From contig NHIU01000022.1 of the NCBI GenBank assembly GCA_002169755.1, forward strand, positions 1-7,943: a stretch of 7,943 bases of DNA, written 5' to 3'. The first letter of the stretch is position 1, and every line of letters begins with the position of its first letter. Shown here one piece after another: positions 121 to 5,623 of the stretch. This stretch comes from Candidatus Pelagibacter sp. TMED197. GTDB taxonomy: Bacteria > Pseudomonadota > Alphaproteobacteria > Pelagibacterales > Pelagibacteraceae. A model generated the notes under the pieces. It saw only the letters and a program-made list of their open reading frames with translations, was not told the origin of the DNA and ran no database searches. Position numbers and translations under genes: made by a program.

Positions 121-738
121 ATGAAAAATTTTCCTGATAAAATTCCGGTTTTTCCGTTAAGTGGAGTAATCTATTTTCCTAAAACCAACCTTCCGTTGAA
201 TATATTTGAAGAAAGATATGTAAATTTAGTTAATGATGTTTTTAATAAGGACAAATTGATGGGGATGATTCAATCTAAAAGAAAAGAAGGAGATGTTTTT
301 AATGTTGGGTGTTTGGGTAAAATTAGTGATTTTCAAAAACTTAAAGATGGTAAAATTTTAATCAATCTAACAGGAATTACTAGATTTGAAATTTTGACAG
401 AAATTAAAAGTTCTAAATTATATAGAGAATTTAAAGTTGATTATAGTAAATTTGATCTGGATTTAAATCCTATATCACAAAAAATTAATACTGAAATTTT
501 AATGAAAAAAGCTCAGACTTTTTTGAATAAAAATGGCCTTTTACTAAATTGGAATGAATTTGATAAATTAAAAGAAACTCAGAAAGTCGATACTTTAGCA
601 ATGATAGCTCCGATTACTAATGAGGAAAAACAAAAGCTTTTAGAGTCTGTTTCATTTGAAGAGAAAATAAAGTCTTTAGAGGATATAATAAATTTTTACT
701 TGCATGAAGTCGAATTCAATAACGATACTTTGCAATAA
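121..738 (+). CDS. Stand-alone Lon N-terminal (LAN/PUA-like) domain protein
   Basis: A 205-residue protein of the family annotated as 'LON peptidase substrate-binding domain-containing protein' (COG2802). It carries only the N-terminal domain of Lon, with no AAA+ ATPase and no Ser-Lys protease domain, so it should not be a protease. The diagnostic part is residues 8-35: I-P-V-F-P-L near the start, then L-P-L-N-I-F-E-E-R-Y, which is the family signature. The segment around 45-95 (M-G-M-I, then G-C-L-G-K-I, then a G-[KR]-x-L-I-N-L-x-G-x-x-R-F pattern) matches the rest of the domain. The remaining ~100 residues form a charged, probably helical tail. The cellular role is not established; adaptor or substrate-binding roles are only proposed by analogy with Lon. 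The ATG at 121 has no clear Shine-Dalgarno sequence. The gene is convergent with rho; its stop lies 6 nt from rho's stop. Homologue recognition is confident, function is not. Confidence 0.88.
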   Translation: MKNFPDKIPVFPLSGVIYFPKTNLPLNIFEERYVNLVNDVFNKDKLMGMIQSKRKEGDVFNVGCLGKISDFQKLKDGKILINLTGITRFEILTEIKSSKLYREFKVDYSKFDLDLNPISQKINTEILMKKAQTFLNKNGLLLNWNEFDKLKETQKVDTLAMIAPITNEEKQKLLESVSFEEKIKSLEDIINFYLHEVEFNNDTLQ

Positions 739-2524: not shown

Positions 2525-3517
2525 TTATAAATATTTAGTAACCAGTTTTTCAAACAGTTTTATGTGGTCTGGTTGAGCATTTAAGCAGGGAATTAAGTCA
2601 AAGTTTTTTCCTCCTTTTTTTAGGAAGCTTTCTCGTCCTTGCATGTTTATCTCCTCCAATGTTTCAACGCAGTCAGAAACAAAACCAGGACAAATAACTA
2701 ATAAATTTTTTATCCCTTTATCAGGCAGGCTCTCTATAGTTTTATCTGTATAAGGAGTTAACCACTCTTGAGGTCCAAATCTAGACTGGAAAGTAGTTTG
2801 AATTTCAATTTTGCTAAATTTTTCTTTCATTAGTCTAGTAGTTTTTTGGCAATAGCATTGATAGGGATCGCCTTTATCAAAATAAGATTTTGGAATGCCG
2901 TGGTAAGAAGATAGTATTAAATCTGGCTTCCAGTTAATTTCCTTAATCTTATTTTCAATGCTGTTAATTAATGCATCGATATACATAGGCTCGCTCTCAT
3001 AATGAGGGATAATTTGCAAACTTGGTTGCCATCTCATCCCCATCAAAGATCTGTAAACTTCGTCACATACAGTTGCTGTTGTTGCTGCTGCATACTGAGG
3101 GTATAAAGGCAAAATTACTATATTTTCGCATCCGCTTTCCTTCAACTTGTAGAGTTTTGATTTTATACTTGGATTACCATATCTCATTGCAAAATCGACA
3201 AAAACTTTTTTGTTTGAAATGTTATTATTAAGTTTGGTAGCCTGCATTTTGGTAAAATATAATAAAGGTGACTCGTTCGTATCCTTCCGCCAAATCTTTT
3301 TATACGCATGGGCTGTTTTAGAAGGTCTAAAGGTTAAAATGAATATATTTAAAATAATTTGCCATAATATTGGATTTACTTCTATGACTCTTCTATCAGA
3401 TAAAAATTCCTTTAGATATTTTCTTATGTCCCACCAACTTGTAGAGTCGGGGGTTCCTAAGTTGACAAGTAAAATTCCAGTTTTACCGTATTTTATATTT
3501 GGGTGGTCTCTATTCAT
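2525..3517 (-). CDS. hemH: Ferrochelatase HemH
   Basis: Inserts Fe2+ into protoporphyrin IX to give protohaem, the last step of haem b synthesis, usually at the membrane surface. The 330 residues match bacterial family length. The N-terminal signature L-V-N-L-G-T-P-D-S is at 17-25 and L-P-L-Y-P-Q-Y-A at 136-143. The active-site S-Y-H-G-I-P is at 204-209 (His206), and C-P-G-F-V-S-D-C-V-E-T-L-E-E-I at 276-290, with Glu285 matching the conserved catalytic glutamate. Cysteines occur at 150, 221, 223, 276, 283 and 311. Some bacterial ferrochelatases, including that of Caulobacter, bind a [2Fe-2S] cluster; whether these residues do so here cannot be decided from sequence alone. Its ATG overlaps the hemE TGA by 4 nt (ATGA), indicating translational coupling. 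Confidence 0.98.
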   Translation of the reverse strand: MNRDHPNIKYGKTGILLVNLGTPDSTSWWDIRKYLKEFLSDRRVIEVNPILWQIILNIFILTFRPSKTAHAYKKIWRKDTNESPLLYFTKMQATKLNNNISNKKVFVDFAMRYGNPSIKSKLYKLKESGCENIVILPLYPQYAAATTATVCDEVYRSLMGMRWQPSLQIIPHYESEPMYIDALINSIENKIKEINWKPDLILSSYHGIPKSYFDKGDPYQCYCQKTTRLMKEKFSKIEIQTTFQSRFGPQEWLTPYTDKTIESLPDKGIKNLLVICPGFVSDCVETLEEINMQGRESFLKKGGKNFDLIPCLNAQPDHIKLFEKLVTKYL

Positions 3518-4524
3518 TTATGATCTCTATAAAATTTTATTAATTTACTTACTTTATCAGGTTCTGTTTCAGGAAGTAAGCCATGGCCTAAATTAAAAAT
3601 ATATGGAATGTCTTTAAAGATTTTTATATATTTTGATGCTTCATTTAACATTTCTTTTTCTGATTTTAATAAAAATTTTGGATCGAGACCACCTTGCAAT
3701 ACTACGTTTTTTAAATGTTTTTTTGCCCACTGAGCTTCTAGCTCATAATCTATGTTTAATCCATCTGGTTTAACTAATTTATTGAATATTTCATAATTTT
3801 TTCTTAATCCCTTTGGGAAGCAAATATTGGGGATTTTTTTATATTTACAAAATTCAATTATTTTTGCATTTGGAATAAAACAGTATTCACTTATGTTGTC
3901 TGAGGGTATTAGTCCTGCCCATGAATCAAAAATTTGCACGACATCTGCTCCTGCATTTATTTGATTTTCTAAATGTATACATAAATATTTTATTAATTTA
4001 TTTTTAATTAATTCTATTTTAGATTTCTCTTTTATTAATTGATTAAAATTAAGTTTATTTTTATTTTTCTTAAGACCCAACATATAAACCATAAGTGTCC
4101 ATGGGGCTCCAATGAAAGATATAAGAGATTTTTTATTATCGAGCGCCTTTCTTGTTTTTTCAATTGCTTTATAGATAGGATTAAGTCTTTTTCTAAAATC
4201 TATTTCGTTATTGTCTTGGAATTTTTCGATTTTAAAATCGCTTAATTCAGGACCACGGTCTTTAATAAATTTTATTTCTTGTCCAAGAGCATATGGAACC
4301 ATTAAAATATCTGAAAAAATGATAGCTGAGTCGACATCAAAACGCTTAACAGGTTGTAGTGTAATTTTTGAACTTAAATCACTGTCTAAACAAAGTTTAA
4401 CAAAATCTTGATTTTGTGATCTTATTTCTCTGAACTCAGGTAAATATCTTCCAGCTTGTCGCATAAACCATATGGCTTTACAAGATGAGTTTTTTTCGAT
4501 TAAAATTTTGTGTAAAGGATTCAT
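3514..4524 (-). CDS. hemE: Uroporphyrinogen decarboxylase HemE
   Basis: Decarboxylates the four acetate side chains of uroporphyrinogen III to give coproporphyrinogen III, in the cytosol. The 336 residues match family length (about 340-355). The diagnostic N-terminal motif I-W-F-M-R-Q-A-G-R-Y-L-P-E-F-R is at 18-32, with the two substrate-carboxylate-binding arginines of R-Q-A-G-R. F-S-D-I-L (70-74) holds the conserved active-site aspartate (Asp72). G-A-P-W-T-L (139-144), F-D-S-W-A-G (199-204) and N-L-G-H-G (311-315, conserved His314) are all present. The ATG at 4524 places the R-Q-A-G-R motif at the normal distance from the N-terminus. It is the first gene of the minus-strand operon and borders the 277-bp spacer opposite ppsR. 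In Caulobacter and Rickettsia this gene flanks the chromosomal origin. Confidence 0.98.
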   Translation of the reverse strand: MNPLHKILIEKNSSCKAIWFMRQAGRYLPEFREIRSQNQDFVKLCLDSDLSSKITLQPVKRFDVDSAIIFSDILMVPYALGQEIKFIKDRGPELSDFKIEKFQDNNEIDFRKRLNPIYKAIEKTRKALDNKKSLISFIGAPWTLMVYMLGLKKNKNKLNFNQLIKEKSKIELIKNKLIKYLCIHLENQINAGADVVQIFDSWAGLIPSDNISEYCFIPNAKIIEFCKYKKIPNICFPKGLRKNYEIFNKLVKPDGLNIDYELEAQWAKKHLKNVVLQGGLDPKFLLKSEKEMLNEASKYIKIFKDIPYIFNLGHGLLPETEPDKVSKLIKFYRDHK

Positions 4525-4557
4525 AAATACATATAATTTAATTATTTTACTTTAGAA

Positions 4558-4586
4558 TTACTAGTAGGATTTGTTATTTACTAGTA
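4558..4586. repeat. Two TTACTAGTA repeats 20 bp apart with a palindromic core
   Basis: The 9-mer TTACTAGTA occurs at 4558-4566 and 4578-4586. Its 8-bp core TACTAGTA is a perfect palindrome. The exact 20-bp period, about two helical turns, would put two dimeric regulators on the same face of the DNA. The distal copy overlaps a minus-strand TATACT (4588-4583) that could be a hemE -10 box, about 60 bp before the hemE ATG. Binding partner unknown. Confidence 0.6.
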
Positions 4587-4592
4587 TAATTA

Positions 4593-4611
4593 TTTATACA
4601 TGTTTTATACA
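4593..4611 (+). repeat. Two TTTATACA direct repeats 11 bp apart
   Basis: TTTATACA occurs at 4593-4600 and again at 4604-4611, one helical turn apart. The TTATACA part agrees with the first seven positions of the relaxed DnaA box TTATNCACA, but the last two bases differ in both copies (TG and GC). They are therefore weak DnaA-box candidates or a paired site for another protein. Confidence 0.45.
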
Positions 4612-4674
4612 GCAGTTATTTAATAAATTATCAAGTTTAGGCTCAAAAAATCTCTAGTTTATTAAAAATATAAA

Positions 4675-4687
4675 CAATGGTTTGATT
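4675..4687 (-). promoter_or_regulatory. IHF-consensus match in the candidate origin
   Basis: CAATGGTTTGATT is a full match to YAANNNNTTGATW, the reverse complement of the IHF consensus WATCAANNNNTTR. IHF bends DNA at bacterial origins, and an IHF site is known in Caulobacter Cori. It sits between the TTTATACA pair and the AATGTTA repeats, where a bend would make sense. By rough estimate from base composition, such a match would arise by chance in about one in ten spacers of this size. Confidence 0.4.
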
Positions 4688-4690
4688 ATA

Positions 4691-4739
4691 ATATTAACAA
4701 TTAATAAAATGTTAGAATAATGTTAATAAATGTTAATTA
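4691..4739. repeat. Helically phased AATGTTA repeats and TATTAACA elements (DnaA-box-like cluster)
   Basis: AATGTTA occurs at 4708-4714, 4719-4725 and 4729-4735, with periods of 11 and 10 bp. The second copy forms TGTTAATAA (4721-4729), whose complement TTATTAACA matches TTATCCACA at 7 of 9 positions. The third forms TGTTAATTA (4731-4739). The octamer TATTAACA also appears on the plus strand at 4692-4699 and again outside this cluster at 4789-4796, just before the ppsR start. Phased short repeats beside an A/T-only stretch resemble DnaA arrays, but the owner protein is unproven. Confidence 0.5.
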
Positions 4740-4740
4740 C

Positions 4741-4770
4741 TTTTTTTTAATTTTATTAATAATGAATAAA
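4741..4770. other. Extreme A/T stretch, candidate DNA unwinding element
   Basis: Only one of these 30 bases is G or C. The segment starts with eight T residues and lies immediately beside the phased AATGTTA repeats, the usual position of an unwinding element relative to an initiator array. Given the overall A/T bias of this DNA, the call rests more on position than on composition. Confidence 0.4.
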
Positions 4771-4778
4771 ACATGTTT
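4769..4778. repeat. Perfect 10-bp palindrome AAACATGTTT upstream of ppsR
   Basis: AAACATGTTT is a perfect inverted repeat centred about 28 bp before the ppsR ATG. The flanks nearly extend it: AATAAA on the left and TTATT on the right would give a 16-bp palindrome if one A were removed. Its right part ACATGTTT also occurs at 4598-4605, between the two TTTATACA repeats. It is a plausible operator for ppsR or a structural element of the origin. Confidence 0.35.
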
Positions 4779-4801
4779 ATTAGAAAACTATTAACAGAGA
4801 T

Positions 4802-5623
4802 ATGAACGAAAAATACAATGTATATCTAGTATCAGATTCCACAGGAGAAACTTTAGATAGAATTTTTCTATCTTTAAAATCTCAATTTGCCAATTTTAAC
4901 TATGACAAAAAAGAGTTTGTTTTTATAAGAACGGAGCAACAAATCGACAAGATCATTAGAGAGTGTTCAAAAGTTAAAAATTCAATAATTTTATATACCA
5001 TTGTAGAAACTAAACTTGCAAAGTACATTTCTAATAAAAGCGAACAAAATCAAGTACCTTGCTTTGGCATTTTAGGAAATCTGATACTTAGTTTTTCTAA
5101 ACTTTTAAACCAAAAAGCAATACACAAGCCTAGCGCTCAACATGTTTTGGATGAAGATTATTACAAAAGGATTGAAGCAATTCAATTTACCATGTCCCAT
5201 GATGATGGCAAAAAGTTAGATGATATTGAAAATGCAGATATTGTTCTCCTTGGAGTAAGCAGAACTAGCAAGACGCCCACGTCTATTTATCTAGCTAATA
5301 GAGGTTACAAAACAATAAACATTCCATTAGTTTTGGATCATGCAATCCCAGAAGTAATAAAACTAAAAAATAAAAAAACTAGTGTAATTGGACTTTTTGC
5401 AGATCCTGAAAGACTGGCTGATATAAGAAGAAATAGAGTGGCGATAATGAGAGAAAATAATGTCACAAAATATACTGACGTAAAAGCTATTAGAGACGAG
5501 GTAACTAAATCTAAAGAACTTTTTAAAAAAAATAATTGGCCCACAATTGATGTAACCCGAAAGTCAGTAGAAGAAACTGCTGCATCAATTTTAAAAATCT
5601 ATGAGATACAAAAAAACAGATGA
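4802..5623 (+). CDS. ppsR: Pyruvate,phosphate dikinase / PEP synthase regulatory protein (DUF299)
   Basis: Bifunctional regulator that phosphorylates a threonine of its target with ADP to inactivate it and removes the phosphate with inorganic phosphate to reactivate it. It thereby controls pyruvate to PEP conversion. The 273 residues match family length. S-D-S-T-G-E-T (11-17) is the N-terminal signature. The ADP-binding P-loop G-V-S-R-T-S-K-T (151-158) is intact and is followed by P-T-S-I-Y-L-A-N-R-G-Y-K. D-P-E-R-L (201-205) and V-T-R-K-S-V-E-E-T-A-A (251-261) are also typical. Whether the target is PPDK or PEP synthase cannot be told here; alphaproteobacterial members usually act on PPDK. 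This is the RP001-type gene that borders the origin in Rickettsia and Caulobacter. The ATG at 4802 has a weak upstream AGAGA, and one TATTAACA element ends 5 nt before it. It is the first gene of the plus-strand operon and overlaps maf by ATGA. Confidence 0.96.
   Translation: MNEKYNVYLVSDSTGETLDRIFLSLKSQFANFNYDKKEFVFIRTEQQIDKIIRECSKVKNSIILYTIVETKLAKYISNKSEQNQVPCFGILGNLILSFSKLLNQKAIHKPSAQHVLDEDYYKRIEAIQFTMSHDDGKKLDDIENADIVLLGVSRTSKTPTSIYLANRGYKTINIPLVLDHAIPEVIKLKNKKTSVIGLFADPERLADIRRNRVAIMRENNVTKYTDVKAIRDEVTKSKELFKKNNWPTIDVTRKSVEETAASILKIYEIQKNR

Follow-up and report, generated by a model that had tools for sequence, protein, structure and literature searches.

The window analysed here is the whole 7,943-nucleotide stretch of contig NHIU01000022.1, from Candidatus Pelagibacter sp. 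TMED197, and its features are collected in Table 1. Names had been assigned to its genes from the sequence alone, in the order rho-hemJ-hemH-hemE on the minus strand and ppsR-maf-aroE-coaE-dnaQ on the plus strand, and NCBIfam models confirmed them, with the Maf-like gene below the cut-off (TIGR00172, 110.5 bits; cut-off 117.15) and dnaQ cut by the window end. The protein encoded at 121-738 matches the N-terminal part of Lon models only, far below cut-off. By eye, positions 1-26 resemble the truncated end of a minus-strand tRNA gene; ARAGORN reports none. The hemE-ppsR spacer is indeed the only long non-coding stretch, since all other gaps between predicted genes are 66 bp or shorter. Its two flanks are those of the Caulobacter and Rickettsia origins, as had been proposed: Table 1 of PMC1914354 places both at hemE|COG1806.

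The host was suspected to be SAR11-like, and its relatives agree. The best 80 of 168 loci encoding a PpsR relative (76-83% identical to the window's) belong to Pelagibacteraceae, Pelagibacterales or Ca. Pelagibacter, plus one 'Rickettsiales' MAG. The window PpsR is 80% identical to that of HIMB058, which passages of PMC9589681 assign to SAR11 clade II. Distant PpsR relatives were also seen in 19 phage records, all at <60% identity and five of them without annotation; these records possibly contain host DNA. Within the heme cluster, HemH of genome G085 is 28% identical to the window's (72% for HemH of G024), and HemE of locus L004 is 36% identical (55-72% in other relatives), so that these two genes may possibly have been replaced beside the proposed origin.

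Table 1. Features of the window, with conservation of the aligned sites among 77 window-clade spacers
Feature	Position	Strand	Observation
Lon-N-like protein gene	121-738	+	precedes rho; stand-alone, 205 aa
rho, hemJ, hemH, hemE	left of spacer	-	NCBIfam names
hemE, uroporphyrinogen decarboxylase, left flank	3514..4524	-	TIGR01464, 308.8 bits (cut-off 302.95)
hemE-ppsR spacer, proposed chromosomal origin (oriC)	4525..4801	.	277 bp, 15.5% G+C
S1, AACA half kept	4572..4580	-	base 6 A 75/77; bases 7-9 ACA 77/77; bases 1-3 variable
S2, TTATACA-type	4594..4602	+	base 6 C 77/77; bases 8-9 variable
S3, TTATACA-type, 11 bp after S2	4605..4613	+	base 6 C 75/77
S4, full variant box TTATNAACA	4668..4676	+	TTATAAACA 60/77; window ATATAAACA; base 5 A 71/77
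S5, full variant box	4691..4699	+	TTATTAACA 32/77, TTATCAACA 16/77; window ATATTAACA; AACA at 6-9 77/77
S6, first of three inverted sites, AACA half only	4710..4718	-	base 6 A 76/77; ACA 74/77
S7, inverted site	4721..4729	-	exact TTATTAACA in window, TAATTAACA 49/77; base 6 A 73/77; ACA 77/77
S8, third inverted site, AACA half only	4731..4739	-	base 6 A 75/77; ACA 77/77
AT-rich stretch adjoining S6-S8, candidate unwinding element	4740..4787		helix stability
S9, full variant box 5 bp before ppsR	4788..4796	+	TTATTAACA 55/77; window CTATTAACA; base 5 T 72/77
ppsR (COG1806/RP001 type; PPDK/PEP-synthase regulator), right flank	4802..5623	+	NF003742, 310.5 bits (cut-off 225)
maf, aroE, coaE, dnaQ	right of ppsR	+	NCBIfam names; dnaQ cut by window end

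With the window rather than the genome average as yardstick, the spacer is 84.5% A+T vs 71.7% (15.5% vs 28.3% G+C). Over the window as a whole, helix stability is lowest for the 200-bp span 4569-4768, and within the spacer the least stable 30 and 50 bp are 4733-4762 and 4713-4762; among 50-bp spans of the window, the minimum falls within hemE, outside the spacer. The IHF consensus WATCAN5WTR has one spacer match, at 4675-4687 on the minus strand, and 8 in the window vs 7.3 expected. No GANTC was found in the window's spacer; a CcrM homologue is present in SAR11 according to passages of PMC3973325.

Conservation among relatives was borne out for both the length of the spacer and blocks within it. 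The gap was 263-285 bp (median 271) in the 76 of 80 relatives for which the starts of both flanking genes were measurable; three more (L035, L039 and L048) extrapolate to about 268-271 bp, and the contig of L016 has no hemE. A gap of 261-286 bp was observed in all 22 further SAR11 genomes, hand-chosen from a listing (PpsR 54-73% identical), and this is also the range over all 98 relatives. When 77 spacers were aligned (the window and 76 relatives), sharp conserved blocks stood out amid drifting AT-rich DNA.

The spacer had also been described as dense in short repeats, which holds in one sense only. A repeat tool found few, a single direct pair of 20 bp (80%) and four inverted ones. For the 9-mer pattern TTATNAACA, which was picked after looking at relatives, the window spacer has 10 sites with at most one mismatch vs 2.47 expected, and 0 of 2,000 dinucleotide shuffles reached 10. 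Just one of its sites is exact. Against the textbook DnaA box TTATNCACA, one site lies within one mismatch (0.76 expected, no excess) and 18 lie within two (7.83 expected, p 0.001).

The two patterns are distributed differently across clades. The original prediction of an origin lacking textbook DnaA boxes holds for the window, which has no exact TTATNCACA, and throughout its clade (0 of 77 spacers, with 2.75 expected by shuffles), but it does not extend to SAR11 as a whole, as 14 of 22 spacers from other clades carry one. That is a 20-fold excess over shuffles (0.75 expected), and TTATNAACA is about 18-fold enriched in the window's clade (2.32 per spacer vs 0.13 shuffled), although both ratios overstate independence because the spacers are related. 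TTATNAACA is present in 75 of the 77 window-clade spacers, those of L069 and L076 having none, and in 19 of the 22 from other clades. The spacer is the densest 300-bp cluster of TTATNAACA in the sampled sequence of G002 and G004, and of TTATNCACA in that of G085. Exact copies of TTATNAACA number none in the G001 spacer and one in that of G024.

Nine sites, S1 to S9, could be followed through the alignment. At seven of them (S1 and S4-S9), base 6 is A in 73-77 of the 77 spacers and bases 7-9 are ACA in 74-77. TTAT at bases 1-4 is kept by S4, S5 and S9 only, and S1 and S6-S8, with variable bases 1-3, would be half-boxes at best. Base 5 differs among S4, S5 (T in 38/77, C in 33/77) and S9 while bases 6-9 hardly vary, like the N of the DnaA box. 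S6-S8 are spaced by 11 and 10 bp and S2-S3 by 11 bp, about one helical turn. Conservation was 0.901 in the boxes vs 0.674 in the rest, a comparison that is partly circular because the sites were selected as conserved. In other clades, where joint alignment is uncertain in such AT-rich DNA, the place of S1 is taken by the textbook box TTATTCACA in 9/22 spacers and that of S4 by the textbook box TTATACACA in 4/22. At S3, 7/22 have TTATCTACA, one mismatch from the textbook box; at S9 we found the one-mismatch CTATCCACA in 2/22, TTATAAACA in 4/22 and TTATTAACA in 3/22. S6-S8 have no counterpart in these 22 spacers.

DnaA is our favoured candidate for the protein that binds these sites, by a modest preference. 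A substantial possibility, less favoured and compatible with an origin here, is that the TTATNAACA/TTAACA repeats bind a CtrA-like regulator, HU/IHF or another factor, and that DnaA uses only the TTATACA-type or other weak sites. The protein itself gives such a binder some room. In DnaA of the window's clade, aligned to the E. coli DNA-binding domain (1j1v), the RDHTT motif and ARPRQ are intact, and since the recognition helix, NRDHTTVIHA, looks unchanged, the protein does not predict a changed box. In the bacteria covered by passages of PMC5043019, DnaA has less affinity for sites that deviate from TTATNCACA; four of the seven sites here are without the TTAT half. Neither variant nor textbook box lies within 300 bp upstream of the first ATG, our guess at the start, in five dnaA genes (three of the window's clade and two others, from 11 loci).

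The CtrA site TTAA-N7-TTAA is 3.2-fold over shuffles in the 77 clade spacers, with at least one copy in 49 (17.4 expected), but the window spacer has none, and none of eight SAR11 genomes passes the cut-off of the NCBIfam CtrA model (best 145.5 of 350 bits), a Rhodobacter-type model passed by 1 of 14 control genomes. Seven OmpR-type regulators were scanned, of 19 matches: two match PhoB over cut-off, and five have no over-cut-off model among the matches listed. HU/IHF-type proteins occur in 5/5 genomes, and none of the three scanned passes an HU or IHF cut-off. Two features of the sites themselves speak for DnaA. The A or C at base 5 of S4 and S5 breaks TTAA and keeps the DnaA-box pattern, and the places of S1 and S4 are those that hold textbook DnaA boxes in other clades.

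A check for a skew minimum at the spacer had been proposed, and we made it in four single-contig SAR11 genomes (G085, G024, G033, G070) and three partial contigs of the window's clade (G001, G002, G004). The raw skew turn near the spacer within the window was left out of the evidence because gene orientation also turns there, and the skew and symmetry results come from relatives rather than from the window's own genome. Each single-contig genome was sampled as 20 stretches of 20 kb (28-31% of the sequence, about one stretch per 65-72 kb), with the spacer-holding stretch split at the spacer. The cumulative GC-skew minimum fell in the spacer-holding stretch in all four, with the maximum on the opposite side, and the left/right contrast at the spacer gave one-sided permutation p values of 0.0042, <0.0002, 0.0010 and <0.0002. 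In three genomes the contrast peaked at 0, -4 and -3 kb; in G085 the peak was at +73 kb. With an origin at the spacer, 62, 71, 65 and 68% of gene bases would be on the leading strand in the four genomes; this share was highest with the centre at the spacer for G024 and G070, at +78 kb for G085 and at -124 kb for G033.

The three partial contigs from the clade of the window did not follow this pattern. Their contrast has the expected sign and is weak (one-sided p 0.060, 0.136 and 0.141), and their cumulative minimum is off the spacer, at +220 to +247 kb. Third-position GC skew, leading minus lagging genes, is inverted in them (-0.058, -0.034 and -0.065 in G001, G002 and G004) vs +0.032 to +0.080 in the single-contig genomes. 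A block of mostly minus-strand, G+C-richer genes lies at about -80 to -40 kb on these contigs, and our guess is that this block and the partial coverage of the chromosome may disturb the measure. In G001, G002 and G004 (stretches L088-L140), AT skew at third positions is greater for the leading strand.

Gene positions relative to the spacer were compared between each of the three window-clade contigs and G085 and G024, at 72-97 reciprocal best hits per pair. Across the six between-clade pairs, 181 of 198 side-changing hits were strand-flipped. A two-dimensional scan on a 10-kb grid put the best centre of these mirror rearrangements at the spacer in 6/6 pairs, which are not independent because three contigs and two genomes are shared among them. 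Side/strand concordance was 0.89-0.97 at the spacer, with a grid median of about 0.5, and 0.87-0.97 without genes within 12 kb of it. A distance-weighted score peaked at the spacer in five pairs and at (10,10) kb in the sixth. dnaA is itself mirrored: in G085 and G024 it lies on the hemE side at about 63 kb, and in G001, G002 and G004 on the ppsR side at 72-74 kb. A protein with an OmpR-type winged-helix C-terminus and a weak or missing receiver was observed 18-29 kb from the spacer, also mirrored between clades (L241, L299, L301; G024:C1:1135215; G004:C1:124698).

A ParB_N-family gene is found near the spacer in 8/8 genomes: in five it is 9-12 kb distant on the hemE side, in three 19-20 kb distant on the ppsR side. 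G070 and L004 have perfect matches to the parS consensus, at -7.3 and -6.8 kb, and G085 has a one-mismatch site at -7.4 kb. Near the spacer in the sampled sequence of G001, G002, G004, G024 and G033 there was no site within two mismatches, and just 1 of 80 flanking loci had one within one mismatch.

Taken together, position in relatives, conservation, mirror symmetry and skew support the proposed SAR11-like origin at hemE|ppsR. We read the spacer as a chromosomal origin started by DnaA, with a probability of roughly 0.87 that applies to the claim as a whole and to no individual site.

It is improbable that the spacer is a divergent promoter region only, with the blocks serving as hemE and ppsR promoters and operators and the origin lying elsewhere. 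Diverging genes do require two promoters, TTAACA looks like a -35 hexamer, and positions 4400-4900 hold 9 promoter-like matches vs 5.2 expected from shuffled sequence. Promoters alone would leave the skew minimum, the mirror symmetry and the proximity of ParB unexplained. Seven same-core sites in both orientations, one of them ending 5 bp before ppsR, are also unlike -35 boxes, and the TTATAAACA/TTATCAACA variants do not fit such boxes. Promoters may well coexist with an origin in the spacer.

We regard a replication terminus as very unlikely, even though mirror symmetry alone does not separate the two, as inversions centred on a terminus are also mirrored, and the third-position GC skew of the three window-clade contigs has a terminus-like sign. 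No dif marker is available to place the terminus, because P. ubique is without the dif/Xer system according to passages of PMC2731167. An origin is favoured on the strength of the ParB-family gene lying 9-20 kb away in all eight genomes and of the sign of the raw GC skew and the leading-strand gene bias in 4/4 single-contig genomes; the same address is also an origin in Caulobacter and Rickettsia (PMC1914354). A conserved non-coding RNA or riboswitch would account for the kept length and blocks, but the chance of this is negligible given that a search of the window against Rfam, with E values up to 1, gave no match and that the folding energy is like that of shuffles (z 0.29, plus strand only).

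The locus is best read as a hemE-type alphaproteobacterial origin with a probable variant box. In the mechanism we propose, DnaA would bind the two TTATACA-type sites 11 bp apart (S2 and S3), the three full TTATNAACA sites (S4, S5 and S9) and the four AACA half-sites, three of which are inverted and spaced by 11 and 10 bp. Bound DnaA would form a filament and open AT-rich DNA, presumably around 4713-4787, and two forks would depart the spacer in opposite directions. Whether the DnaA box itself shifted from TTATNCACA to TTATNAACA across the whole origin in the window's clade, bound by a DnaA with an ordinary helix, is a call that we put slightly short of even; the estimate was lowered because four of the seven sites keep the half box only. 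If the box did shift, the initiator and the origin would have changed in concert to a single-C box under strong AT pressure, and CtrA control was perhaps lost alongside. What is new is that, throughout the clade, TTATNAACA and AACA half-sites have taken the place of the textbook DnaA box.

Coverage in SAR11 is reported to follow one bilinear pattern with a single origin, the locus being unnamed in the passages concerned (PMC9589681), and a Pelagibacter isolate shows an ori-to-ter methylation gradient, again with the locus unnamed in those passages (PMC9516812). hemE is listed among origin indicator genes in a passage of PMC2275245, and the hemE-ppsR locus goes unmentioned in the available parts of PMC2031905, PMC2099444, PMC7852909, PMC2704228 and PMC7858055. 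More broadly, the passages retrieved from open-licence PMC literature held no statement of where the SAR11 origin lies or of a DnaA box in SAR11. A SAR11 origin prediction may be present in databases such as DoriC.

SAR11 bacteria are among the most abundant in the ocean, and metagenome-based growth estimates require the start point of replication to be known. If that point is hemE-ppsR, peak-to-trough measurements would gain an anchor. The variant box, if real, would allow joint change in DnaA and its sites to be tested cleanly, at base 6. It would also mean that a free-living alphaproteobacterial origin kept its address while one clade lost the textbook DnaA boxes.

The closest known counterpart is the hemE|COG1806 (RP001) origin of Caulobacter crescentus and Rickettsia, which, in the passages of PMC1914354, has the same two flanks and is likewise intergenic, AT-richer than its surroundings and away from dnaA. 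The SAR11 spacer is smaller, at 277 bp vs 383-404 bp, and in contrast to those origins the window spacer has no textbook DnaA box, TTAA-N7-TTAA or GANTC, with no match over the cut-off of the one CtrA model used in the eight SAR11 genomes. CtrA sites are not universal among the origins in that source, being absent in E. ruminantium. The hemE|COG1253 origins of Wolbachia and Ehrlichia (PMC1914354) also sit on the hemE side in AT-rich alphaproteobacteria, and there the second flank differs, COG1806 being retained in SAR11. Variant DnaA boxes are known from passages of PMC5043019, including the TTCAC-core of epsilonproteobacteria, the I sites and tau boxes of E. coli and the W-boxes of Caulobacter. 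The sites of the window's clade resemble these as clustered 9-mers near TTWTNCACA with a lineage-specific consensus, the likeness to W-boxes and I sites being one of description, and they differ from the epsilonproteobacterial core in that C has changed to A at base 6, while that core retains the C.
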